A stretch of DNA of 64,000 bases. Origin: Iocasia fonsfrigidae. Its GTDB lineage: Bacteria; Bacillota; Halanaerobiia; Halanaerobiales; DTU029. The stretch lies in contig NZ_CP046640.1 of the NCBI RefSeq assembly GCF_017751145.1, forward strand, positions 1,964,137 through 2,028,136, read 5' to 3'. Within the stretch, counting starts at the first letter, position 1; every line of letters starts with the position of its first letter. A program made the translations under genes and the position numbers. The notes beneath the pieces are model-generated. The model was not told where the DNA came from, did no database searches, and worked only from the letters and a program-made list of their open reading frames with translations. This document shows positions 16,570 through 59,736 of the stretch, one piece after another.

Positions 16570-16640
16570 GAAATGGAATAATTTAGTCTATTCTTTGAAA
16601 ATTAGGGAGAAAAAATATAATTAAAGAATATAAATGTATA

Positions 16641-16669
16641 TTGACAACATACCTAACGTTTGGTATAAT
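16641..16669 (+). promoter_or_regulatory. tetR promoter with embedded operator (copy 1)
   Basis: Consensus sigma-A promoter TTGACA (16641-16646), 17-bp spacer, TATAAT (16664-16669). The near-palindrome ATACCTAACGTTTGGTAT (16649-16666) fills the spacer, so a bound repressor would block polymerase. The same motif recurs at 17362, 17751 and 19390. Confidence 0.85.
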
Positions 16670-16699: not shown

Positions 16700-17284
16700 A
16701 TGAGTACTAAAGACATTCTTATTCAAGAAGCCAGTAAACAATTTCTTAAAAAAGGTTATGAAAAAACCAGTATTAATGATATTACTGCCGCGTGTAATAT
16801 TACTAAAGGGGCTTTTTACCACCACTTTAATAATAAAGATGAAATATTTATGATTGTTTTTGATAATATTTGTGCTGAAATAAAGGAATGGTATCTTAAT
16901 AGGTTGAAAAACAAATCCTCAATTGAACAATTTATTAAATCATTTTTTAATTATGATCAATATATAAAAAATAGTAATTTTTTTAAAAATATTAATGTCA
17001 ATATTTATACTGTGATTGCTGATGGCGTTAGAAGGTTTCCTGAATTGAAGTCAAAAATTTATACAGCTCTCTATAGTATTTTACCTATCTTTAAGCAAAG
17101 GATAAAAACTGCTCAAAAACAAGGAGTTCTTAAAGAGGATTTTGATCCAGAAGTTTTTGCCTTTATAATTATCAATCTTATTGAAGGTGGTATGTTTATA
17201 TCTACACTTACCGGTGATAATGTATCAATTGATAATAAATGTGAAATGGTTGCAAACACAATCTGGAATTTAATAAAAAAATAG
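16700..17284 (+). CDS. TetR/AcrR-family transcriptional regulator
   Basis: 194 residues from ATG 16700 behind GGAGG; an in-frame ATG at 16634 lies upstream of the promoter and is rejected. The N-terminal helix-turn-helix is typical (TSINDITAACNITKGAFYHHFNNKDEIF). The ligand-binding C-terminal domain ends in IWNLIKK. The operator inside its own promoter implies autorepression, and three further operator copies downstream suggest it also controls the Lnt-like gene and the MMPL export operon. Parts of its 3' end are repeated as remnants at 17449-17718 and 19311-19349. The ligand is unknown, perhaps a hydrophobic compound or lipid. Confidence 0.93.
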   Translation: MSTKDILIQEASKQFLKKGYEKTSINDITAACNITKGAFYHHFNNKDEIFMIVFDNICAEIKEWYLNRLKNKSSIEQFIKSFFNYDQYIKNSNFFKNINVNIYTVIADGVRRFPELKSKIYTALYSILPIFKQRIKTAQKQGVLKEDFDPEVFAFIIINLIEGGMFISTLTGDNVSIDNKCEMVANTIWNLIKK

Positions 17285-17352: not shown

Positions 17353-17382
17353 TTGATAAACATACTGACCGTTTAGTATAAT
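17353..17382 (+). promoter_or_regulatory. Operator copy 2 within a promoter-like sequence
   Basis: TTGATA (17353-17358), 18-bp spacer, TATAAT (17377-17382), with ATACTGACCGTTTAGTAT (17362-17379) overlapping it as in copy 1. It now precedes only the decayed tetR copy. Confidence 0.7.
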
Positions 17383-17448: not shown

Positions 17449-17718
17449 AAAGAATCTCTGACAGACCTATATATGTATAAATTATTTAATAGTATTATAC
17501 ACATCTTTAAAGAAAGGTTAAAGACCGCACTGCAATAGGGGTAGATTGAGACAGATTTTAATTTAGAGGTCTTTTCCTTTATTTTTATTAATTTTATAGA
17601 AGGTACTTTCTTTATTTCTACTCTTATGGGTGATGAACAATCACTTGATAAAATAGCTGAAATGATTGCCAGTAAAATCTGGGATCTAATCAAAAGGCAA
17701 CAGGAAGGTTGTGATTAA
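17449..17718 (+). pseudogene. Remnant of a second tetR gene (C-terminal half)
   Basis: This frame reads KESLTDLYMYKLFNSIIHIF, then FKERLKTALQ, two stop codons, then TDFNLEVFSFIFINFIEG, TFFISTLMGDEQSLDK and IASKIWDLIKR. It matches the second half of the intact upstream regulator (FKQRIKTAQKQ, DFDPEVFAFIIINLIEGG, ISTLTGD, IWNLIKK). The DNA-binding N-terminal half is gone. It is a degenerate tandem copy; the operator copy just upstream is still recognisable. This accounts for most of the gap between tetR and the Lnt-like gene. Confidence 0.82.
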
Positions 17719-17750
17719 AAATATAACAGTAAAAAAATTTTATAAACAAC

Positions 17751-17768
17751 ATACCTGACGGTAGGTAT
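17751..17768 (+). promoter_or_regulatory. TetR operator copy 3, before the Lnt-like gene
   Basis: ATACCTGACGGTAGGTAT, the most symmetric copy of the motif (ATACC-N8-GGTAT). It lies 54 bases before the Lnt-like start codon and overlaps a possible -10 TATTGT at 17766. Confidence 0.72.
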
Positions 17769-17821: not shown

Positions 17822-19309
17822 ATGACAATAAGAAAGTACAACTCTATAATACTATTTATTACAGGATTCTTCCTATTCATGTTCACAAGAAGAAGTGAGC
17901 TATTTCCAACAATTCAAATAATGATAATAATTGCGCCAATTTTTATTTTGCGATTCATAAGGATTCAAAGTACTAAAAAAGGAATACTTTTGACATTCCT
18001 GGGATTCTTTTTAAGTTTGAACATAGCTCTCTTTGGACTTTTTGATCTGAGTGGTTCCTTAATGGAGATATTATTTAATACCGTTAGAAGCACAATTATT
18101 GCCCTAATGTATTTTGTACCTTATATGGTTGATAGACTCATATACCCAAAATTTAAAAAATATCCAATAATATCTTCTTTAATATTTCCGGTATCTGTAA
18201 CAGCAATTATGTTTTTATTTTCATTGGAAGGTCCAATAGATGGAACTGAAGCCAAGACCATTTTCTCATATGGTCCATTAATTTTTCAGCAGATTAATTC
18301 AATAACAGGACTTTGGGGATTCATTTTCATATTTTCCTGGATTGCTACAACTATCAATAATCTATGGGAATATAATTTTGAGATAAAGAAAAGTAAAACA
18401 GTACTAGTTGTTTTTGCTTCAATTTTTTTAGTCAGCTTGTTTTTTGGAACCATTAAGGTCAATACTACAAATCAATATGAAAATACAGTAAAAATTGCTG
18501 CAATAATTCTACTTCCAGAAGACGGGAAAGCCGTTTCAATGGAAAAAATAATAGAAGAAAGAAATACATCATCATTTAATAAAAGGTTGCTTAAAATTGA
18601 ACAATTAACAAAGACCGCATCCCAGAAAGGTGCAAAAATAATTTCATTTCAAGAGTTTGCTATGTTAATTAATGATGAAGATCAAGATTCATTAAGGAAG
18701 GAATACAAAAGAATAGCAAAAGAAAATAATGTATATTTAAGTATTACTTACGGATATTTCTCCAAAAAAGAAAAAGGTGAAAATAAACATCTTCTTATTA
18801 ATAATCAAGGAGAAATACTATTAGATTACACTAAAAGATATCTTTTAGGATTTGGAGATATTGGAGAGACTGCTGTCTTCAAAAAGGGTGTAGAAATCAT
18901 TCAATATACAGATACTCCTTATGGGCGACTTGCGATTTCAATTTGTAAAGATATGAATTACCCAGCTTACATAAGACAGGCAGGAGAAGCAGACGTAGAT
19001 ATAATGCTAAATCCTTCATACGATTTTCCGAAAAGCACATCACCTTCTTATTACGATAGGGCAATTGAAAATGGTTTTTCAATCATAAGACCAACCTACA
19101 ATGGGATAACTTATATGGAGGATTATAACGGAGAAATCATTGCTATGATGGATTCAGATAAAACAGAAACAGGTATTTTGTACGCAGATCTTCCAATTAA
19201 AGGGGTCGAAACAATTTATTATAAAATTGGAGACTTGCTTGGGTGGCTTTCTTTATTTGGACTTTTTGTATTAATCTTTATTAGTATTAGATTAAAGAAC
19301 AACTCCTAA
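17822..19309 (+). CDS. Lnt-like membrane carbon-nitrogen hydrolase
   Basis: 495 residues, near the 512 of Escherichia coli apolipoprotein N-acyltransferase. About six hydrophobic segments fill residues 1-215, followed by a nitrilase-fold domain (about 225-465) with a Glu-Lys-Cys triad at E278 (FQEFAML), K338 (DYTKRYLLGFGD) and C375 (SICKDMNYP); compare E267, K335 and C387 in the E. coli enzyme. A final membrane segment follows. The domain order equals Lnt, which N-acylates lipoproteins at the outer face of the inner membrane, but the regions around the triad diverge, so the acceptor may differ. It is inserted between two tetR remnants and preceded by the TetR operator. Confidence 0.75.
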   Translation: MTIRKYNSIILFITGFFLFMFTRRSELFPTIQIMIIIAPIFILRFIRIQSTKKGILLTFLGFFLSLNIALFGLFDLSGSLMEILFNTVRSTIIALMYFVPYMVDRLIYPKFKKYPIISSLIFPVSVTAIMFLFSLEGPIDGTEAKTIFSYGPLIFQQINSITGLWGFIFIFSWIATTINNLWEYNFEIKKSKTVLVVFASIFLVSLFFGTIKVNTTNQYENTVKIAAIILLPEDGKAVSMEKIIEERNTSSFNKRLLKIEQLTKTASQKGAKIISFQEFAMLINDEDQDSLRKEYKRIAKENNVYLSITYGYFSKKEKGENKHLLINNQGEILLDYTKRYLLGFGDIGETAVFKKGVEIIQYTDTPYGRLAISICKDMNYPAYIRQAGEADVDIMLNPSYDFPKSTSPSYYDRAIENGFSIIRPTYNGITYMEDYNGEIIAMMDSDKTETGILYADLPIKGVETIYYKIGDLLGWLSLFGLFVLIFISIRLKNNS

Positions 19310-19310
19310 T

Positions 19311-19349
19311 TTGATTGCCAGTACAATCTGGGGTTTAATAAAAAAATAG
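19311..19349 (+). pseudogene. Third tetR remnant (last 12 codons)
   Basis: Right after the Lnt-like stop, this frame reads LIASTIWGLIKK and a stop, equivalent to the last residues of tetR (TIWNLIKK) and of the 17.5-kb remnant (IASKIWDLIKR). It is a scar of repeated duplication; an operator copy again follows it. Confidence 0.7.
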
Positions 19350-19389
19350 GAGGTGATAAATAAATTTCGAAGACAAATATCCATTAACC

Positions 19390-19407
19390 ATACCTAACGT
19401 TCAGTAT
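19390..19407 (+). promoter_or_regulatory. TetR operator copy 4, before the MMPL operon
   Basis: ATACCTAACGTTCAGTAT, identical to copy 1 over its first 12 bases, overlapping a possible -10 TATTGT (19405-19410). It lies 51 bases before the transporter start codon. Confidence 0.75.
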
Positions 19408-19457
19408 TGTTAATGCGATTTTCCGATTTAGATAAAATAATGATAGGAGGAGATGGT

Positions 19458-22130
19458 ATGATAGATAACCTTTTTAAATGCTTAGCAAGAATAACTACCA
19501 AAAAGCCGGTTACAATATTACTTATTACAGGTATTATAACCGTTATTATGTTAATCCTCGCATCACATTTAAACTTGGAATTAAGTTGGGTGGCTCTGGC
19601 CCCCAAAGGGGACCCTTCACAATTTGAATATAAAAAGATATTAAATAACTATCCCTCTGCCAGTAAAATTTATATTACTATAAGAGATAAAAAAGGGAAT
19701 CCTGAGGAAGCTGCTAGAGTTGCAGCGGAGAGATTAAAAAAATTGGGTAAATATGTAGACAATGTAGAATATAAAGCTAATATAGAATATATGCTTAATA
19801 ATGGTATGTTGCTTTATAAAATAAAGGATCAGGAAAATATTACTTCAATACTAAAAGACCCTAATTTCACAGGATTTCTAAAAAACCTGAATGATTTATA
19901 TGATAGGAAATATAGGGAGAATAGTAATAATATTGAAGATGATAAAGATGATTTGGCTAGATCCTTCTGGGGATTAAAAGAGTTTTTACAGATATATGAT
20001 CAATCTCTGCAAAATGGTATAACAAATAAAGCATATGATAGAGGAATTAATCAATTATTAATTGGTGACCCATATATACGTTCTATTGGTGGGAATACAT
20101 TACTAATGACAGTTCAACCAACCTTTGGCGTTATGGATTATCAGAATCTCAAACCAGGGGTAAATGCTATTGAAAATGAGATTAAATCAATAGAAAAGGA
20201 ATATCCAAATTATCAATATGGTTTAACAGGTATGCATGTAATTAGTAGAGATGAACTGGTCACAAGTTTCAGGGATTCCAATATAGCTATGACTATTGGT
20301 TTTGTTTTGATAATTATAATCTTGATAATAGCATTTAAAATGTGGCTTTCACCTTTGTTATCTATTATTCCGCTTATAGTTGGGATTATTTGGGACATGG
20401 GATTCACGACAATTATTATTGGTAGATTAAATATTATGACTGTCTTTACTGCAGCTATGTTAATTGGTCTAGGGATTGATTTTTCAGTACATATTTTAAG
20501 CGGCTATACTGAGGCCAGGAGTAATAATAAGTCTGCGTATCAGGCTATCTATTATTCTTTACAGAAGACAGGTCCGGGAATATTAACTGGAGCACTTACT
20601 ACCTCAGCAGCATTCTTTGCTTTGACAATCAGCTCTTTAGGTCTGTTAGTAGAACTTGGTATTACTATGGGTATAGGTATTTTAACTATTATGCTGGCTG
20701 TTTTCTTTATTCTACCCTCTATTTTATATCTATGGGTGAATAAGCAAGGGAAAACAAAAACTGTTAAGCATGGAAGTTTTAAGATAATTGGTAGGTCAGC
20801 AGTATTTTTTAACCGATGGAAATATCCAGTTATGATACTGATATTATTAATAAGCATTTTGATGGGATGGTATGGTGAGAAGACCAATGTATATTTGAAT
20901 CTCAAAAAAATAGAGCCTCATGGTCTGGATTCCATTAAAGTTATGGATGATATTTCAGATAAATACGATATGAGTAATGATGCGGTTATGTATACGACTA
21001 ATAATCTGCTGGATACCTATAATTTAGCAGAAGAGTTAGATGATAAGCCCCAGGTTGATACTGTAAGTACGATAACTGATTATCTACCACCTGAAAGCAT
21101 TCAAAAAAAACGATTAAAAGAGTTAAGGAAAACAGGCATAAATGCTTTCATCGATAATCCACCGGTCTATCATAATATTGATAAAGGAGAATTGCTAAAG
21201 CAGTTTGAGCGTTTGAATGACAATATGATTGAAATGGGGCAGTTGTCTTTTATGGCCGGTATTGATGAAATTGTTACTGTTACTGATCAAATTACAGGAA
21301 CTCCCGATCAGGCAGGAATTCTACCTGCTATAATCAATAGGCTTAAAGAAGAAGGGTATAAGCATGAATATTTAAGTGATTCAGCGGCTTTGTTTTATCG
21401 GCTTTTTTCTGAGAAAAGTAAGATTATGAAAGTTTCAAGTTTGCTAACTATAGTAGATTTACCTGAAGATATCAGAAATAGGTTCCTGAATAAAAAGGGG
21501 GATTCATTTCTGACCAGTGTTTATGCAAAGGGGAACCTCTGGGATAATATCCAAAAACCCTATGGCAAAAATTTTATTTATATGTTAAGAGATAAGGTTC
21601 CCCAGATAACAGGCTCACCAATATTTTTACGCATTCTATATGACACATTATATAGTGAGGTGCCTGAAGCCTTGTTATTAGTAGGTATTACAGTTTTAAT
21701 ACTTTTATTATTCCATTTTAAATCTATTAAATTGGCTTTGATTACTATTTTACCACTCATAGTAGCTATGATAGTAACAGTTGGTGCAGTACATTTATTA
21801 AAAACTGAACTGGATATCTTCAGTGTACTGGCTTTTCCTCTTATTATAGGGATAGGTATTGATTATGGCGTACACTTTGTTCACCATCTGAAAATCAGGG
21901 GAGAGGGCTTAGAGGAATCCTTCAGTAGTGTTGGTCGAGCAGTATTTTTGACTACAATAACAACCATGGCTTCATTCGGAACACTAATGATTGCTAAATA
22001 TAGGGGAATTTTCCGAATGGGCGTAACTATGTTTATAGGAGTAGCTTTATGTTTTATCTTTGTTATTCTATTGATACCTATCTTTACTGAAAACAAACAG
22101 GAAAATAGGGAAGAAAAAAACAAATTTTAA
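19458..22130 (+). CDS. MMPL/RND-superfamily exporter (Patched/HpnN-like)
   Basis: 890 residues from ATG 19458 behind AGGAGG; an upstream in-frame TTG at 19407 overlaps the operator. Twelve membrane segments fall in two halves: a single N-terminal helix, a ~200-residue extracytoplasmic loop, then five helices with IGLGIDFSVHILSGYTEA. The second half repeats this with IGIGIDYGVHFVHHL. These GxGxD motifs carry the proton-relay aspartates of MMPL-type pumps. Relatives move lipids or hopanoids from the inner membrane. The two following genes encode a LolA-like periplasmic protein and a predicted outer-membrane barrel, so the three could form a complete lipid route under TetR control. Confidence 0.92.
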   Translation: MIDNLFKCLARITTKKPVTILLITGIITVIMLILASHLNLELSWVALAPKGDPSQFEYKKILNNYPSASKIYITIRDKKGNPEEAARVAAERLKKLGKYVDNVEYKANIEYMLNNGMLLYKIKDQENITSILKDPNFTGFLKNLNDLYDRKYRENSNNIEDDKDDLARSFWGLKEFLQIYDQSLQNGITNKAYDRGINQLLIGDPYIRSIGGNTLLMTVQPTFGVMDYQNLKPGVNAIENEIKSIEKEYPNYQYGLTGMHVISRDELVTSFRDSNIAMTIGFVLIIIILIIAFKMWLSPLLSIIPLIVGIIWDMGFTTIIIGRLNIMTVFTAAMLIGLGIDFSVHILSGYTEARSNNKSAYQAIYYSLQKTGPGILTGALTTSAAFFALTISSLGLLVELGITMGIGILTIMLAVFFILPSILYLWVNKQGKTKTVKHGSFKIIGRSAVFFNRWKYPVMILILLISILMGWYGEKTNVYLNLKKIEPHGLDSIKVMDDISDKYDMSNDAVMYTTNNLLDTYNLAEELDDKPQVDTVSTITDYLPPESIQKKRLKELRKTGINAFIDNPPVYHNIDKGELLKQFERLNDNMIEMGQLSFMAGIDEIVTVTDQITGTPDQAGILPAIINRLKEEGYKHEYLSDSAALFYRLFSEKSKIMKVSSLLTIVDLPEDIRNRFLNKKGDSFLTSVYAKGNLWDNIQKPYGKNFIYMLRDKVPQITGSPIFLRILYDTLYSEVPEALLLVGITVLILLLFHFKSIKLALITILPLIVAMIVTVGAVHLLKTELDIFSVLAFPLIIGIGIDYGVHFVHHLKIRGEGLEESFSSVGRAVFLTTITTMASFGTLMIAKYRGIFRMGVTMFIGVALCFIFVILLIPIFTENKQENREEKNKF

Positions 22131-22146
22131 CTAGGAGGTAATTGAA

Positions 22147-22905
22147 ATGAAATTAAATTTAAGAGTATTTAGTCTGATACTGATATTAGTTTTTGCTATG
22201 GGAGCAATGGCTACGGCTGCAGATATTAGCGGTAATGAAATAATGAAAAAAGCAGATGAGAATATGAATTATGGTAGTTACAAGGGGAAAGGTAAAATGA
22301 TAATTCATACAACTAGTGGTGATGAAAGGGTTTTAAAGATGGAGATGTGGGGCCAGGGAACTGAAGAATCAATTATGAAATACTATGAACCTCAACGAGT
22401 AAATGGTGTTACATTTCTTTTCCTTCATAAAAATATTTGGTCATATTTCCCCAGAACCGGTCGGGTACGCCATTTAGGAGAACATGTGAAGAATCAGAAG
22501 ATGATGGGTAGTTCATTTAGCTATGATGATTTTAATGGTAAAATCTTTGATGATTATCAGTCAAAATTAATCAAAGAAGAGGAATTTAACAATGAAAAAT
22601 GTTATTTTGTAAAAGGTGTGGCTAAAAACGCTCAGGCAGCTTATGATAGTTTTGAAGCCTGGGTTGCAGAAGATGGATTTAGACCACTAAAGGTTAATTA
22701 TTTTAAGGATAACCAGCAGGTAAAGGTAATGAACACTGAAAGTTTTCAGAGAATTAATGGTGAATTACGTCCCAGAAAAATTGTAATGAAAGACTTAGAG
22801 GATAATAATACGACTAGCTTTGAATATTTAGAGATGAAGACCGGAATTAAATTCAGACCTGATTTCTTTAATGAAAGAAACCTGAAAAGAATATCCCAGA
22901 GTTAA
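22147..22905 (+). CDS. LolA-like outer membrane lipoprotein-sorting protein
   Basis: 252 residues: signal peptide (1-25, ending ATA-AD), then an eleven-stranded LolA/LppX-like fold recognised by KMEMWGQGTEESIMKYYEP, NGVTFLFLHKNIWSYFPRTG and MMGSSFSYDDF, the hallmark of the family named outer-membrane lipoprotein-sorting protein. Such proteins hold acyl chains in a hydrophobic cup while crossing the periplasm. Start ATG lies behind AGGAGG, 16 bases after the MMPL gene. Its partners in many genomes are MMPL pumps or FtsX permeases; both types occur here, the latter as a remnant at 24.2 kb. Confidence 0.9.
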   Translation: MKLNLRVFSLILILVFAMGAMATAADISGNEIMKKADENMNYGSYKGKGKMIIHTTSGDERVLKMEMWGQGTEESIMKYYEPQRVNGVTFLFLHKNIWSYFPRTGRVRHLGEHVKNQKMMGSSFSYDDFNGKIFDDYQSKLIKEEEFNNEKCYFVKGVAKNAQAAYDSFEAWVAEDGFRPLKVNYFKDNQQVKVMNTESFQRINGELRPRKIVMKDLEDNNTTSFEYLEMKTGIKFRPDFFNERNLKRISQS

Positions 22906-22921
22906 GGAGGCCATAATTAGG

Positions 22922-24118
22922 ATGAGAAATAGAGTAATAGTAGTATTATTAATAATACTACTCTTTATCTCACTACAAATTAGGGCAGCTGATTTTTCTT
23001 ATAAAGCTATGTTTGAATCTTATCTGGAAGACTACCGGGAAGATGGGGAAGAGTATTTTACTTCATTGAATGAGTTTAATCTAAAAATTGATACAGGAAC
23101 TTTTAATTATACGTTGCATCTTGATGGTAGTGTACTGTTTAATGACAAGGGGTTTAAGGATTTAAATGAGCTTTCAATAAAGTGTAAATCAAAATTAAAT
23201 AAATTATTCCTGAATTGCTGGTTTACAGAGGGGCAGCTTAAATTTGGTAAACAGCGAATAGCCTGGGGTTCTGGTTATTTCTTTAATCCTACAGACTTGA
23301 TTAATCCCCTAAAAGAAGATGATAAAGGGGAGATAAATCCCCGTGATGCTACTGAAGGGGTATATGGCAGATATTATATAGGGGCTGCTACCCTGGAAGC
23401 TGTAGTGATAACTGATTTTCAACCCCTGGGACCGGATACAGATAAAGAAGCTGCTAATCTTGCACAACAATACAATCCGTTATTAACAGGGGAAGTAGAT
23501 TTACCAGAAAACTTTTCTGAGGAAAGGGAACTTGCTGTAAGGTATTCAACACTAATTAATATGTTTGACTTTTCCCTGTTATATTATCAGGGTAGGGAAG
23601 ATTATCCAGTAGTAGAGCTTAACCCAGCATCAGCTAAACTTTTACTTAAACATCCCCGAAAAGATGTCATAGGAATTAATTTATCAGGTACAGTCGGTGA
23701 TATTGCTGTCTGGAGTGAAGCCAGCTATTCCAATCCTGAAATAGGGGACAATTACTTACAGTCAATTATCGGGATGGATTATACTTTTGAAAATGGGATA
23801 CATCTACTGGGAGAATATTACTACGATAATAGTTTTTCTAATTTTGTTTCTGACCAGGAAGTTGATATAAAAGATTTTATTTGTCTTGAGGCTGATTATA
23901 ATTTGACTGATTTAATAAAAATAGAAGCTGATTATTTAACTCCTATTAATTCAGATTATTATCAGATATATGGAAAACTAACTTATCCTATCCGACAAAA
24001 TCTTGAACTAGAGACTGGCTTTAATAAAAGTGGCAATAAAGAGGGAACAATTTTTGAAAATAATAGTTTTTTCTCTATAAAAGATAAAATATACTTTAAA
24101 ATAAAATATTATTTTTAA
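22922..24118 (+). CDS. Predicted outer-membrane beta-barrel (DUF1302-like)
   Basis: 398 residues with a signal peptide (1-22, ending IRA-AD) and a body of alternating polar/hydrophobic strands. A conserved core GKQRIAWGSGYFFNPTDLIN resembles DUF1302-type barrels found with MMPL pumps in Gram-negative bacteria. The protein ends in an aromatic phenylalanine (KIYFKIKYYF), the usual signal for barrel assembly. Third gene of the TetR-controlled operon, 16 bases after the LolA-like gene with AAGGAGG between them. It is probably the outer-membrane exit or receptor for the transported lipid; no sequence proof of the cargo. Confidence 0.75.
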   Translation: MRNRVIVVLLIILLFISLQIRAADFSYKAMFESYLEDYREDGEEYFTSLNEFNLKIDTGTFNYTLHLDGSVLFNDKGFKDLNELSIKCKSKLNKLFLNCWFTEGQLKFGKQRIAWGSGYFFNPTDLINPLKEDDKGEINPRDATEGVYGRYYIGAATLEAVVITDFQPLGPDTDKEAANLAQQYNPLLTGEVDLPENFSEERELAVRYSTLINMFDFSLLYYQGREDYPVVELNPASAKLLLKHPRKDVIGINLSGTVGDIAVWSEASYSNPEIGDNYLQSIIGMDYTFENGIHLLGEYYYDNSFSNFVSDQEVDIKDFICLEADYNLTDLIKIEADYLTPINSDYYQIYGKLTYPIRQNLELETGFNKSGNKEGTIFENNSFFSIKDKIYFKIKYYF

Positions 24119-28540: not shown

Positions 28541-28840
28541 TTACTCCTTTTTGTGTTTTACAATACCAAAAATAGATATACCAGGTTTAATTTCAATTAA
28601 TTCATATTCCTGGGCATTTATCCAGACATGACCTTTTTCATCCATATCAACTTCAAGTTCAGGTGCACCTTCTATTTTGAAATTTTCTAATCTATATGGG
28701 TCGATAAATATAAATACTGAATTGATCTGGTAGGCTGATATATCATTAACGTCTGTTAAATTGGCCTGGTTTGAAGCATTAATTAGAAATTTAGCAGAAG
28801 TATTTTCGATTGTATTACTATTTGACTTTTCCTTAACCAT
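28541..28840 (-). CDS. Small protein with NQxNL and GxVxINAQEY modules
   Basis: 99 residues from ATG 28840; an upstream GTG is part of the AAAGGGTG ribosome site. Unrecognised. It shares two modules with neighbours: an N-terminal NASNQANL...ISAYQINSVFIFID segment, like the genes at 28905 and 29767, and a C-terminal GHVWINAQEYELIEI, like GRVFIDAQEYDDND in the gene at 29452. It looks beta-rich, cytoplasmic and non-membrane. The INSVF segment is loosely reminiscent of GerP spore-coat permeability proteins; this is a hint, not an assignment. Confidence 0.6.
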   Translation of the reverse strand: MVKEKSNSNTIENTSAKFLINASNQANLTDVNDISAYQINSVFIFIDPYRLENFKIEGAPELEVDMDEKGHVWINAQEYELIEIKPGISIFGIVKHKKE

Positions 28841-28904
28841 GTAAATCACCCTTTTTATATAAATATTTAATAAACAAAAATAATTTAAAAAATTTAAAAA
28901 TATA

Positions 28905-29177
28905 TTATCCTTTAGTTATTTTTTTGTCAGTATATATATAGATATTATCGTCATTAATATTATTAACACCATTTATTTCTATTTCGCCTTCCTTATTCAA
29001 AAAGATGGAGATTAAAATTTCATCTAATGAAGGAGGCTCAACAGATGAATCTGATTGATTAAGAAAACCTAACCCTAAAATAGTACCAAGGTTGTATTGG
29101 CATAAAATGGTTTTATTGGCATTGCATAAGTTGCCCTGGTTGGAAAAATTAAGGGCTAGGTATTTTTTTTTATTCAT
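28905..29177 (-). CDS. Small protein with N-terminal SNQxNL module
   Basis: 90 residues, unrecognised. It opens with LALNFSNQGNLCNANKTILC, paralogous to LINASNQANLTDVNDISAYQ in the gene at 28541, followed by a glycine-rich hydrophobic stretch (GTILGLGFLNQ). The C-terminal half holds GEIEINGVNNINDDNIYIYT, an echo of the GxVxINAQEY strand of its neighbours. Two cysteines, no signal peptide. It starts six bases after the preceding gene, so it belongs to the same transcript. Confidence 0.6.
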   Translation of the reverse strand: MNKKKYLALNFSNQGNLCNANKTILCQYNLGTILGLGFLNQSDSSVEPPSLDEILISIFLNKEGEIEINGVNNINDDNIYIYTDKKITKG

Positions 29178-29183
29178 AGTAAA

Positions 29184-29432
29184 TCACTCCATGTAATTAT
29201 TAATAATTTTCTTTAATTTTTCTTCTTTTTGTTCTTTAGTTAAATTACTGTTGTGACCTATACTATAAAGTTGTTTCATTAAATCAAATGGGTTTATATT
29301 ACGAACATTGTTATTAATGGTTATCTTATAATCACCGGCCTTAACTATACTTTTGGGACTCCCTTTTTTTTTGTCTGAACTATTAAGACTATGGGTTCTA
29401 ACCCTACCATCATTAAGCTGATTTTGATTCAC
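29184..29432 (-). CDS. Small basic protein with C-terminal helix
   Basis: 82 residues from GTG 29432, behind GAGGATAGGGGG. Unrecognised. It has a lysine/serine-rich N terminus, a short beta segment (GDYKITINNNVRNINPFDLM) and a C-terminal amphipathic helix (SNLTKEQKEEKLKKIINNYM). It has no membrane segment. It lies between the two beta-module genes and is probably a structural or docking component of whatever they build. Confidence 0.55.
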   Translation of the reverse strand: MNQNQLNDGRVRTHSLNSSDKKKGSPKSIVKAGDYKITINNNVRNINPFDLMKQLYSIGHNSNLTKEQKEEKLKKIINNYME

Positions 29433-29451
29433 AATACTATCCCCCTATCCT

Positions 29452-29745
29452 CTAAAACTTGACTATCGTTTGTTCTTTTTTGTTTTGGTCAGCTATATCT
29501 TTTGCTATTTTACGCTCTCCAGGTTTAGAATCTTTTTGTAATTCTAGTAATCTCCTGGTATCTTCCCCCATATTAATATCACTATCTTTTTCCACAGAAA
29601 TACTAAAATTTCTATATTTAGGGTCATTATCATCATATTCTTGGGCATCAATAAATACTCTTCCCTCCCTGGTAATTCTGATAGAAGAAGGAACATCATT
29701 ATCTGCCTTTTTATTTAAGATCATAATCCAGTTTTTATTTAACAT
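29452..29745 (-). CDS. Small protein with GRVFIDAQEY module
   Basis: 97 residues, unrecognised. Its middle carries IRITREGRVFIDAQEYDDND, the same strand motif as GHVWINAQEYELIEI in the gene at 28541, followed by a long charged helical tail (EDTRRLLELQKDSKPGERKI). A start MLNKNWIMILNKK gives one hydrophobic strand, not a signal peptide. ATG follows TGGAGG, 21 bases after the upstream gene. Confidence 0.6.
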   Translation of the reverse strand: MLNKNWIMILNKKADNDVPSSIRITREGRVFIDAQEYDDNDPKYRNFSISVEKDSDINMGEDTRRLLELQKDSKPGERKIAKDIADQNKKEQTIVKF

Positions 29746-57428: not shown

Positions 57429-57593
57429 TTTTTTTTTATTTTTTTCATTATTAAAGCAGGATTCTAAGAATTAATGAAGAAATCATATAATTGGTATGAA
57501 TTATATTTAATTAATAATGGGTATACTATTTTAAGTATCATTGAGTTGCTGTTGGAAGGTTTGTTCTTGTTGGATTGGAAGGAGGTGAAGGGT

Positions 57594-59736
57594 CTGGAGG
57601 TTTATACTGCCGAGGAAGCAGGATTTTGTTTTGGGGTTAAACGGGCAATCGAAATGGCAAAAAATGCCGCTGATGATGAAAGAAAACTTTCTGTCTATAC
57701 CCTTGGACCCATTATTCACAATCCACAGGTTGTTGAAAAATTAAAGGGATTAGGAATTGAACCAATTAATTCCATAGATGATATAGATGAAGGAATCATT
57801 ATTATCAGGTCACATGGTGTAGCACCTGAGATTATTACTAAAGCAAAAGAGAAAGGTTTACATATACTTGATGCAACATGTCCTTTTGTAAAAAAGGCTC
57901 AGCGGTATGCACAGCTACTCATTGAAGAAGATTATCAGACTATTATTTACGGAGATCATCAACACCCTGAAGTAGTTGGTATCTATGGTGCTACAGATAA
58001 AAAGGCTGTTATTTTAGACAATGTTGCTGACCTGGCTAGGATACCTTTGAAAATGCAGAGTTGGTCTAGTAGCACAGACAACAAAGTCTCCTGATTCTTT
58101 TAAAGAGTTAGTTTCATCAATTATTATTAGGGTAAAAGAATTAAAGGTTTACAATACAATTTGTAATACAACAGAAACTAGGCAGCTAGCTGCTGCTAAA
58201 TTAGCCCGTAAGGTTGATTTAATGTTTGTAATAGGGGGGCATAACAGTGCTAATACAAATAGATTAGCTGAAATTTGTAAGGACACTGGAACCCCTACTT
58301 TCCACATAGAAACTGTTGAAGAAATTAACCAACAGTTAATAGATGGTAAGAAAAAAATAGGTATTACTGCAGGGGCATCGACCCCAGATTGGTTAATCAA
58401 GGAGGTTATTGAGGCTATGAGTGAAGAAGAAAAGAAAGATGTACAGCTTGACGAGACTATTGAACAAGAAGATAATAAGACAGCAGCTGTCTTAGAGGAA
58501 GAAACAAGTGAAAGTGTTGATGTTGAGGTGACTGAGGAAACAGGGGATAACGTTGAGGATAAAGATCAGCAAGAAATTGATTATAGTGTTAATGATATTG
58601 CTGATTTAAAGAAAGGGCAGACTGTCAAAGGAACAGTAACACAAATTAAAGATGATGGTGTCTATGTAGACGTCAATTATAAATCTGATGGATTTATCCC
58701 ATTAAGGGAATTAAGTCATAAACCTGTATCTGACCCTAATGAAGTTGTAGAATTAAATGAAGAAATTAATGTAATTATACTTACCCTTGAAGATGATGAA
58801 GGTAATATGATTCTTTCTAAAAAACGTGCTGACTATGAAAAAGCCTGGGAAAATATTATGGAAGTATATGAAAATGATGAAGTAATAGAGGCTAAGGTTA
58901 GCAAGGTAGTTAAAGGTGGTTTAGTAGTCGATGTTGGTTTAAGGGGTTTTATACCGGCTTCTCATGTAGCAATAGGGTATGTAGAGGATTTAAATAAATA
59001 TGTAGACCAGACCCTGAGATTAAAGGTTATTGAAGTTGAAAGAAACAATAATAATGTAGTTCTTTCAGCCAAAAAAGTACTTGAAGAAGAAAGGGCAGAA
59101 ATGAAAGAAAAGACCCTTGATTCTCTAGAAGAAGGTCAAGAGATTGAGGGTACGATCACTAAATTGGTAGATTTTGGTGCTTTCGTTGATTTAGGTGGTG
59201 TAGAGGGATTACTTCATATATCTGAGATGTCCTGGGGTAGAATAGAACACCCTTCTCAAATATTTGAAGAAGGCCAGAAGATAAAGGTGAAAGTACTTGG
59301 TGTAAATAAAGAAGAGGAAAGAATTTCCCTTGGCTATAAGCAATTATTACCTGATCCCTGGGAAGAATTTGTCCGCAAACATTATGAAGGTGAAGTTGTG
59401 ACAGGTACCATTACAAAAATAGTAGATTTTGGTGCTTTTGTAGAGATAGAAGATGGTGTGGAAGGCCTAATTCATATATCCCAACTCTCACACCGCCATG
59501 TCAAAACCCCTGATGAGGTTGTATCTGTAGGGGAAGAAATACAGGTTAAAATAATTAATATTAGTGAAGGACAGAAAAGAGTTGGTTTAAGTATTAAGGA
59601 ATTAGAAGAAAAGCCCCAGTCCCAAAAGGAAGTAAAACCACAAGCATCTGCTAAAAAAGGAGAAACTGAAGAAGAGGGTAGTGGTGTAACACTCGGAGAT
59701 ATATTTGGCAGTATGTTTGATGATGATAATGAATAA
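57594..59736 (+). CDS. ispH-rpsA: IspH-S1 fusion: HMBPP reductase joined to ribosomal protein S1, with a frame break
   Basis: Joined product about 713 residues. IspH part (1-~285) has the three cluster cysteines: C12 (GFCFGVKRA), C96 (ATCPFV) and C190 (TICNTTE); the first two have the same numbers as in Escherichia coli IspH if translation starts at CTG 57594, six bases after GGAGGTGA. Then an acidic linker and four S1 repeats (about 330-690). The frame breaks at AAAA 58050-58053: removing one A restores VGLVAQTTKSP and the rest. Isoprenoid synthesis and mRNA binding are both essential, so the break is probably a sequencing indel. Such fusions are known in Clostridia. A start at TTG 57570 is the alternative. 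Confidence 0.9.

Follow-up and report, generated by a model that had tools for sequence, protein, structure and literature searches.

The stretch of DNA considered here, referred to as the window, comprises 64,000 nucleotides (nt) of contig NZ_CP046640.1 of Iocasia fonsfrigidae; all coordinates are positions in this window. On its plus strand, a gene for an Lnt-like membrane enzyme is followed by genes for an RND (MMPL) pump, a periplasmic LolA-like carrier and an outer-membrane beta-barrel, and a TetR-family repressor gene lies upstream. The original prediction had recognised the enzyme, pump, carrier and barrel genes; all four are present where it had placed them, their open reading frames (ORFs) were confirmed, and two starts were corrected. 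The features of the locus, with protein lengths in amino acids (aa), are:

16648..16666, plus strand: operator-like palindrome 1, within the tetR core promoter (TTGACA at 16641 ... TATAAT at 16669)
16700..17284, plus strand: TetR-family repressor gene (PF00440, E 4e-14; TetR_C_13, E 1e-7)
17361..17379, plus strand: operator-like palindrome 2, within a promoter-like TTGATA-18-TATAAT, upstream of a tetR remnant
17489..17695, plus strand: second tetR, now a degenerate remnant with internal stops, 72% over 208 nt (blastn E 2e-27; tblastn)
17750..17768, plus strand: operator-like palindrome 3, upstream of the Lnt-like gene
17822..19309, plus strand: Lnt-like membrane CN-hydrolase, 495 aa (PF00795, CN_hydrolase, E 2e-24)
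19312..19349, plus strand: 3'-terminal remnant of a tetR, 84% over 38 nt (blastn E 6e-8), just downstream of the Lnt-like gene
19389..19407, plus strand: operator-like palindrome 4, upstream of the pump-carrier-barrel operon
19458..22130, plus strand: HAE3/HpnN-like RND (MMPL) pump, 890 aa (PF03176, E 5e-32)
22147..22905, plus strand: periplasmic LolA-like carrier, 252 aa (PF17131, 152 bits, cut-off 30, near full length)
22922..24118, plus strand: outer-membrane beta-barrel, 398 aa, with C-terminal Phe (OprD/AlgE-type fold, distantly DUF1302-like)

The tetR ORF opens at 16634, within its own promoter, and the ATG at 16700, which follows GGAGG, is the better start; a TTG start of the pump ORF at 19407 falls within an operator, and the ATG at 19458 after GGAGGAG was preferred. 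Since the gaps between pump and carrier and between carrier and barrel are 16 nt each, and each of the three genes has a Shine-Dalgarno sequence, they were read as a single operon, which is separated from the Lnt-like gene by 148 nt. Downstream of tetR come, in turn, an operator, the broken tetR, a further operator, the Lnt-like gene, the tetR tail, the last operator and the pump operon. A search of the window against Rfam gave no matches.

An unprompted repeat search showed that a 35-nt element recurs at 16632, 17345, 17734 and 19373, and each copy contains a palindrome-like core ATAC ... GTAT; the four palindromes are near-identical. Both tetR remnants were also recovered as repeat D2. With up to three mismatches, the 19-nt operator pattern gave seven strand-matches at four places in the window, compared with 1.1 in shuffled sequences, and none of 100 shuffles reached seven. 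Palindromes 1 and 2 each fall between the -35 and -10 hexamers of a sigma-70-like pair, and these two pairs are the best in the region (12/12 and 11/12). The shared operator which had been claimed is thus represented by one repeated operator-like element upstream of both the Lnt-like gene and the pump operon, and the genes may be repressed by the TetR protein. Exact matches to the patterns occurred genome-wide at the four window places only, where they are given by construction, the patterns having been derived from these sites, and allowing one mismatch added one further place; this confinement makes the regulator look local. At up to two mismatches the counts were 13 and 15, versus 11 and 12 for the reversed control, and as this is no clear excess, no wider regulon is claimed.

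The predicted structures agree with the roles assigned to the carrier and the barrel. The AlphaFold2 (AF2) model of the carrier has a predicted local distance difference test (pLDDT) value of 94 and matched LolA3 of P. gingivalis (9tp6, Z 28.2), the DUF1329 protein 4z48 (Z 27.1) and also 3bk5; the match to LolA of E. coli was weaker (Z 11.9). For the barrel, the AF2 model (pLDDT 79.7; predicted template modelling score 0.76) shows an OprD/AlgE-type fold spanning the whole chain, with matches to OpdQ (3t24, Z 23.2, root mean square deviation 3.0, 296 residues aligned), to OprD/Occ channels and AlgE at Z 22–23, and to AlgE itself at Z 22. In sequence the relationship is distant: the window barrel scores 19.1 bits with the DUF1302 model PF06980, below the cut-off of 23.2, which is exceeded by the orthologue in genome G041 (24.7 bits) and by the own-genome paralogues L070 (31.8) and L072 (29.2), G and L numbers being our labels for genomes and loci. 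A search of PDB sequences with the barrel profile gave chance matches only. The terminal Phe, noted in the original prediction, is found in 53/53 aligned barrels; the predicted structure is indeed that of a barrel, and Omp85/BamA-type genes, as expected with an outer membrane, are present in the genome. The pump carries the motifs GLGIDF and GIGIDY, one in each half, and matched the sequence of the HpnN crystal structure 5khn with E 1e-33.

The combination of exporter, carrier and barrel is not confined to the window. Eight PF17131 genes are present in the genome, each adjoining an exporter, which is an RND pump in six modules and an ABC transporter in L074 and L075, and a barrel stands alongside in seven of the eight, the window's included, as judged by blastp with the window barrel; in the eighth, L075, an unverified 344-aa ORF follows the carrier. 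The closest orthologous loci, in G033, G041 and G010, have the order TetR, RND, carrier, barrel, and no Lnt-like gene was found in the stretches read; the contig of G010 is only 4.2 kb long, so that its barrel is cut and the upstream side is out of view. On a wider scale, a scan gave 94 confirmed stretches, the best 80 of which yielded 79 carrier rows from named genomes; rows lacking an exporter or barrel were retained. A barrel was found in the strand chain of the carrier in 67/79 rows, or 50/55 if rows near contig ends are excluded, where the profile used for labelling was trained on barrels of the own genome and relatives, including the unverified ORF of L075. The 12 rows without a barrel comprise six near the right contig end, one near the left end and five interior ones (L093, L100, L133, L140 and L141); in L141 a barrel-labelled ORF lies past the 300-nt gap limit. 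The exporter was of RND type in 38 rows, of ABC type in 25 and not recognised in 16, proportions which are no census, because only the 80 top-ranked of the 94 stretches are represented and the scan query included one ABC-type carrier. A TetR gene was present in the upstream chain in 44/79 rows. In the reverse search, by barrel homology alone, a carrier adjoins the barrel in 28/29 stretches from other genomes, the exception being L023. Record titles included Bacillota, Atribacterota, Acidobacteriota, Candidatus Aminicenantes, Neomarinimicrobiota, KSB1, Synergistales and others. The pump-carrier-barrel set is thus well supported by operon spacing, structure models and recurrence, and its proteins would presumably work together.

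Some other modules showed peculiarities of their own. L072 and L073 of the own genome (at about 2.74 and 2.77 Mb) lie about 28 kb apart, their carriers are near-identical (neighbouring tree tips) and their barrels begin alike; one module has an intact RND pump of 813 aa and the other a pump broken into two ORFs, which suggests a recent duplication with decay. Two ORFs, of 450 and 304 aa, make up the RND pump of L071 in the same genome (about 2.72 Mb), which may reflect a pump in two pieces or a frameshift. L079, L094, L099, L105 and L108 each have an ORF of 904–923 aa upstream of the carrier, barrel and RND genes; these ORFs begin similarly, and by eye they resemble a large regulator of the LuxR/MalT type.

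The Lnt-like enzyme behaves differently from the three genes that follow it. It reaches 31.2 bits with the Lnt model TIGR00546, under the cut-off of 132.9, and a separate canonical Lnt elsewhere in the genome scores 291–292 bits; a role as the housekeeping Lnt was therefore rejected, and the protein is not the enzyme of lipoprotein maturation. When it is aligned with the canonical Lnt of the same genome, its residues E278, K338 and C375 fall on the triad positions (the catalytic triad being E-K-C). Two acidic positions hold D instead of the E of the canonical Lnt proteins compared, and the stretch before the cysteine is shorter in the alignment. Among 121 relatives the close subtype was found only in the own genome and in G004 (61%), the other 16 matches being weak, and among 398 genomes of the phylum only in the own genome and in G400 (E 1e-269). 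No pump, carrier or barrel lies beside the gene in the stretches read from G004 (about 20 kb) and G400 (11.6 kb), which indicates that the enzyme is optional, and a CN-hydrolase gene occurred in the strand chain of the carrier in 0/79 rows. The tetR remnants on both sides suggest capture; the simplest reading of these sequences would be that tetR and operator copies were duplicated and that the Lnt-like gene was captured between the copies. To judge from the gene arrangements, the enzyme may be a recent, optional addition outside the core module. Its place in the system, as originally proposed, is favoured by the operator type it has in common with the pump operon; functional membership has become doubtful in view of its distribution and the remnants. 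In several genomes of one genus in the order (G030, G014, G033, G026, G034 and others) a second Lnt-like protein was seen, with about 69–116 bits (below the Lnt cut-off).

The RND and ABC modules could be compared through their barrels. Two barrel profiles of 12 rows each, one built from RND loci and one from ABC loci, aligned in hhalign with a probability of 99.8%, E 9e-28, over 264 columns, and a stretch G-[KR]-Q ... N-P-x-D is common to both; the barrels are homologous, and the modules thus represent two forms of one kit, in which two pump types occur with one carrier-barrel pair. The carriers of ABC loci fall mostly into one group of the carrier tree, which was constructed by a quick method. 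The ABC ATPase of L074 is LolD-like (232 bits, cut-off 308 missed) and its permeases are LolCE-like (106 and 138 bits, cut-off 362 missed).

This bears on the Lol system of the class. For Halanaerobiales, LolA, LolC/E, LolD and Lnt but no LolB were reported in 2016, in the accessible part of that study (PMC5007114), and horizontal gain of lolCDE and lolA has been suggested (PMC11784454, likewise seen in part); the statement of the original prediction that Lol pathways are poorly known in these bacteria holds in spirit, although a LolA/LolCDE cluster had been described. Canonical LolA (PF03548) was found in 0/59 genomes of the class, the own one included, and the control gave matches in 6/14; identity of the window carrier with canonical LolA was rejected on these grounds. 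Carriers of the PF17131 type are listed in 57/59 class genomes and were found in 70/121 relatives. In the 19 class genomes for which a single PF17131 gene is listed, the form is ABC in 13, RND in three and unclear in three, and a barrel adjoins the carrier in 16. LolCDE itself is not encoded in the window, where the pump is of RND type; the ABC form occurs elsewhere in the genome. Because canonical LolA was found in none of the 59 genomes and PF17131 in 57, the reported Halanaerobiales "Lol system" is probably one form of the pump-carrier-barrel kit. Since these carriers belong to PF17131 and are partnered by a barrel, the role of LolB, if it is needed, may fall to the barrel. In the portions of the literature available, including PMC5007114 and PMC11784454, no mention of a barrel beside the Halanaerobiales LolA was found, which is not proof of novelty.

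Several known systems resemble the window, as far as the accessible parts of the publications cited below describe them. AmeABCD of Castellaniella defragrans, the deletion of which lowers monoterpene tolerance (PMC6394551), likewise combines a DUF1302 barrel, a periplasmic protein of the LolA superfamily and a HAE3 RND pump in one cassette. Its carrier is a DUF1329 protein accompanied by an extra periplasmic COG4447 protein, whereas the window carrier is PF17131 and no COG4447 gene is present among the pump, carrier and barrel genes of the operon; the window adds the TetR array and the Lnt-like gene. In P. putida, a DUF1302 barrel and a DUF1329 carrier are predicted to form a complex, and the genes PP_0765/PP_0766 and PP_2018/PP_2019 together provide barrel, carrier and transporter with a common phenotype on Tween20 (PMC10866462), although the locus numbers place the genes apart. 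These two sets are the closest functional precedents. The putative Lol cluster of Halanaerobiales (PMC5007114) shares a LolA homologue with a transporter; the ABC forms of the present analysis are most likely the same loci, unlike the window with its RND pump. The lipid pumps HpnN (NCBIfam, 5khn) and BstA, of the sterol proteins BstABC (PMC10942540), are RND proteins with hydrophobic cargo bound for the outer membrane, as is proposed here, but the window pump misses the curated cut-offs, and the Bst carriers, BstB and BstC, come from different families. Hopanoid export was considered and set aside, as the HpnN cut-off was missed, although no search aimed at hopanoid synthesis genes was made. 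The flexirubin locus (PMC11885536), a locus for a non-lipoprotein lipid, likewise holds a LolA-type carrier, although LolA2 is paired there with LolB2 and the window carrier with a barrel.

The locus belongs to a known but little-studied kind of module, here in a new variant, and it is probably, with some reserve, a repressor-controlled trans-envelope export module for hydrophobic or lipid-like cargo. The order and direction of transfer, the cargo and the use of the proton gradient are proposed as follows. Powered by the proton gradient, the RND pump would extract the cargo, a hydrophobic or lipid-like molecule, from the inner membrane; the carrier, a LolA-like half-barrel, would ferry it, shielded, across the periplasm; and the OprD/AlgE-like barrel would receive it from the carrier and release it into or across the outer membrane. 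TetR would act through four copies of one operator to repress the pump operon, the Lnt-like gene and tetR itself, and a hydrophobic ligand, probably the cargo or a precursor, could relieve the repression. The Lnt-like enzyme would be an optional, recently captured modifier of the cargo, by acyl transfer or amide chemistry. Of the earlier proposal, that a lipid is acylated or extracted and passed to the outer membrane, the pump-carrier-barrel set is thus retained, the acylation step has become doubtful, and cargo and direction are stated here conditionally. Several points weigh against the export module. The best NCBIfam model for the pump, HpnN (TIGR03480; 326.5 bits, E 3e-97), misses its cut-off of 751.85, and HAE3 (TIGR00921) gives 202.8 bits against 351.9, so that kinship is clear and the subfamily cut-offs are missed. 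Residues 128–142 of the barrel model form a weak stretch (pLDDT <50), and the operator patterns have the circularity mentioned above. In the vicinity of the module, no gene for the synthesis of a cargo was identified. The carrier tree implies few switches of exporter between ABC and RND (two at the minimum), with long branches; "exchangeable" engines should hence be understood as few old exchanges, and exact numbers of pump switches are unsafe because of the long branches (L075, L071, L069 and L070 of the own genome). The Tween20 phenotype, finally, fits uptake as well as export.

Other explanations have to be weighed against this. An efflux system of the AmeABCD kind, in which TetR would sense the toxic hydrophobic compounds that are pumped out, is a special case of export with an external cargo and would seem possible, if rather doubtful: the precedent (PMC6394551, in the part available) and the TetR genes upstream in more than half of the carrier rows speak for it, but a soluble LolA-like carrier and multiple paralogues would suit an endogenous lipid equally well, and no resistance or catabolic gene context was identified. 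That the Lnt-like enzyme N-acylates a cargo which the other three proteins then export, all as one dedicated system, appears unlikely. The common operator type, the adjacent position, the conserved triad positions and the distinctness of this CN-hydrolase from the genome's own Lnt would fit such a scheme; it is opposed by the absence of a CN-hydrolase gene from all 79 carrier chains and of the enzyme from the three closest orthologous loci as far as read (one being the 4.2-kb contig), by its location away from any such module in G004 and G400, and by the tetR remnants, which suggest capture.

Uptake, in which the barrel would admit a hydrophobic nutrient, the carrier move it inward and the pump handle by-products, is improbable. 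OprD-type barrels are uptake channels; RND pumps, however, are exporters, and the operon contains no catabolic gene. Metabolism of Tween20 requires PP_0765/PP_0766 (PMC10866462) and TOL_3187/TOL_3188 increase on long alkanes (PMC6304351), both according to the parts of these reports at hand, and by analogy these cases could be uptake. Very unlikely is a true lipoprotein-sorting route in which the RND pump replaces LolCDE and the barrel replaces LolB. The finding of PF17131 carriers in 57/59 class genomes and of canonical LolA in none would be in line with it, as would the LolCE-like permeases and LolD-like ATPase of the ABC forms and the predominance of that form where a single PF17131 gene is listed; but up to eight carriers per genome and control by TetR are unlike a housekeeping system, the characterised relatives of the pump transport lipids and hydrophobes, the only carrier is RND-linked in three genomes of one genus of the Halanaerobium group, and the LolD and LolCE models remain under their cut-offs.

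A more far-reaching proposal for the class is put forward with little confidence. In place of the textbook step from LolA to LolB, a PF17131 carrier would pass its load to an OprD/DUF1302-like barrel, with an RND or a LolCDE-type ABC engine; parallel carrier-barrel lines would serve lipid, perhaps also lipoprotein, each with its own regulator, and the line in the window would have gained an inducible acyl-transfer enzyme which tailors the cargo. The part worth testing is the carrier-barrel kits with two kinds of engine in a class without canonical LolA. For the route of lipids and lipoproteins to the outer membrane of diderm Firmicutes, the published picture is a Lol-like cluster without LolB; if the partner of the carrier is the barrel, the missing acceptor would already be in view within the same operons. 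The use of one carrier-barrel pair with either engine, RND or ABC, would link the proteobacterial hydrocarbon and terpene RND cassettes with the Lol-type ABC loci, and the kit, which recurs in many bacteria, could offer a testable alternative to the textbook lipoprotein route.

Elsewhere in the window, two other regions were noted. At 57474-59736, as judged by eye, an IspH/LytB-like ORF, which ends at 58094, is followed from 58222 by an ORF with S1-like repeats, and the region looks as if a fused gene had been broken by a frameshift. On the minus strand, at 28541-29745, there are four small ORFs of 82–102 aa in a run, two of which have a similar stretch (WINAQEY and FIDAQEY).

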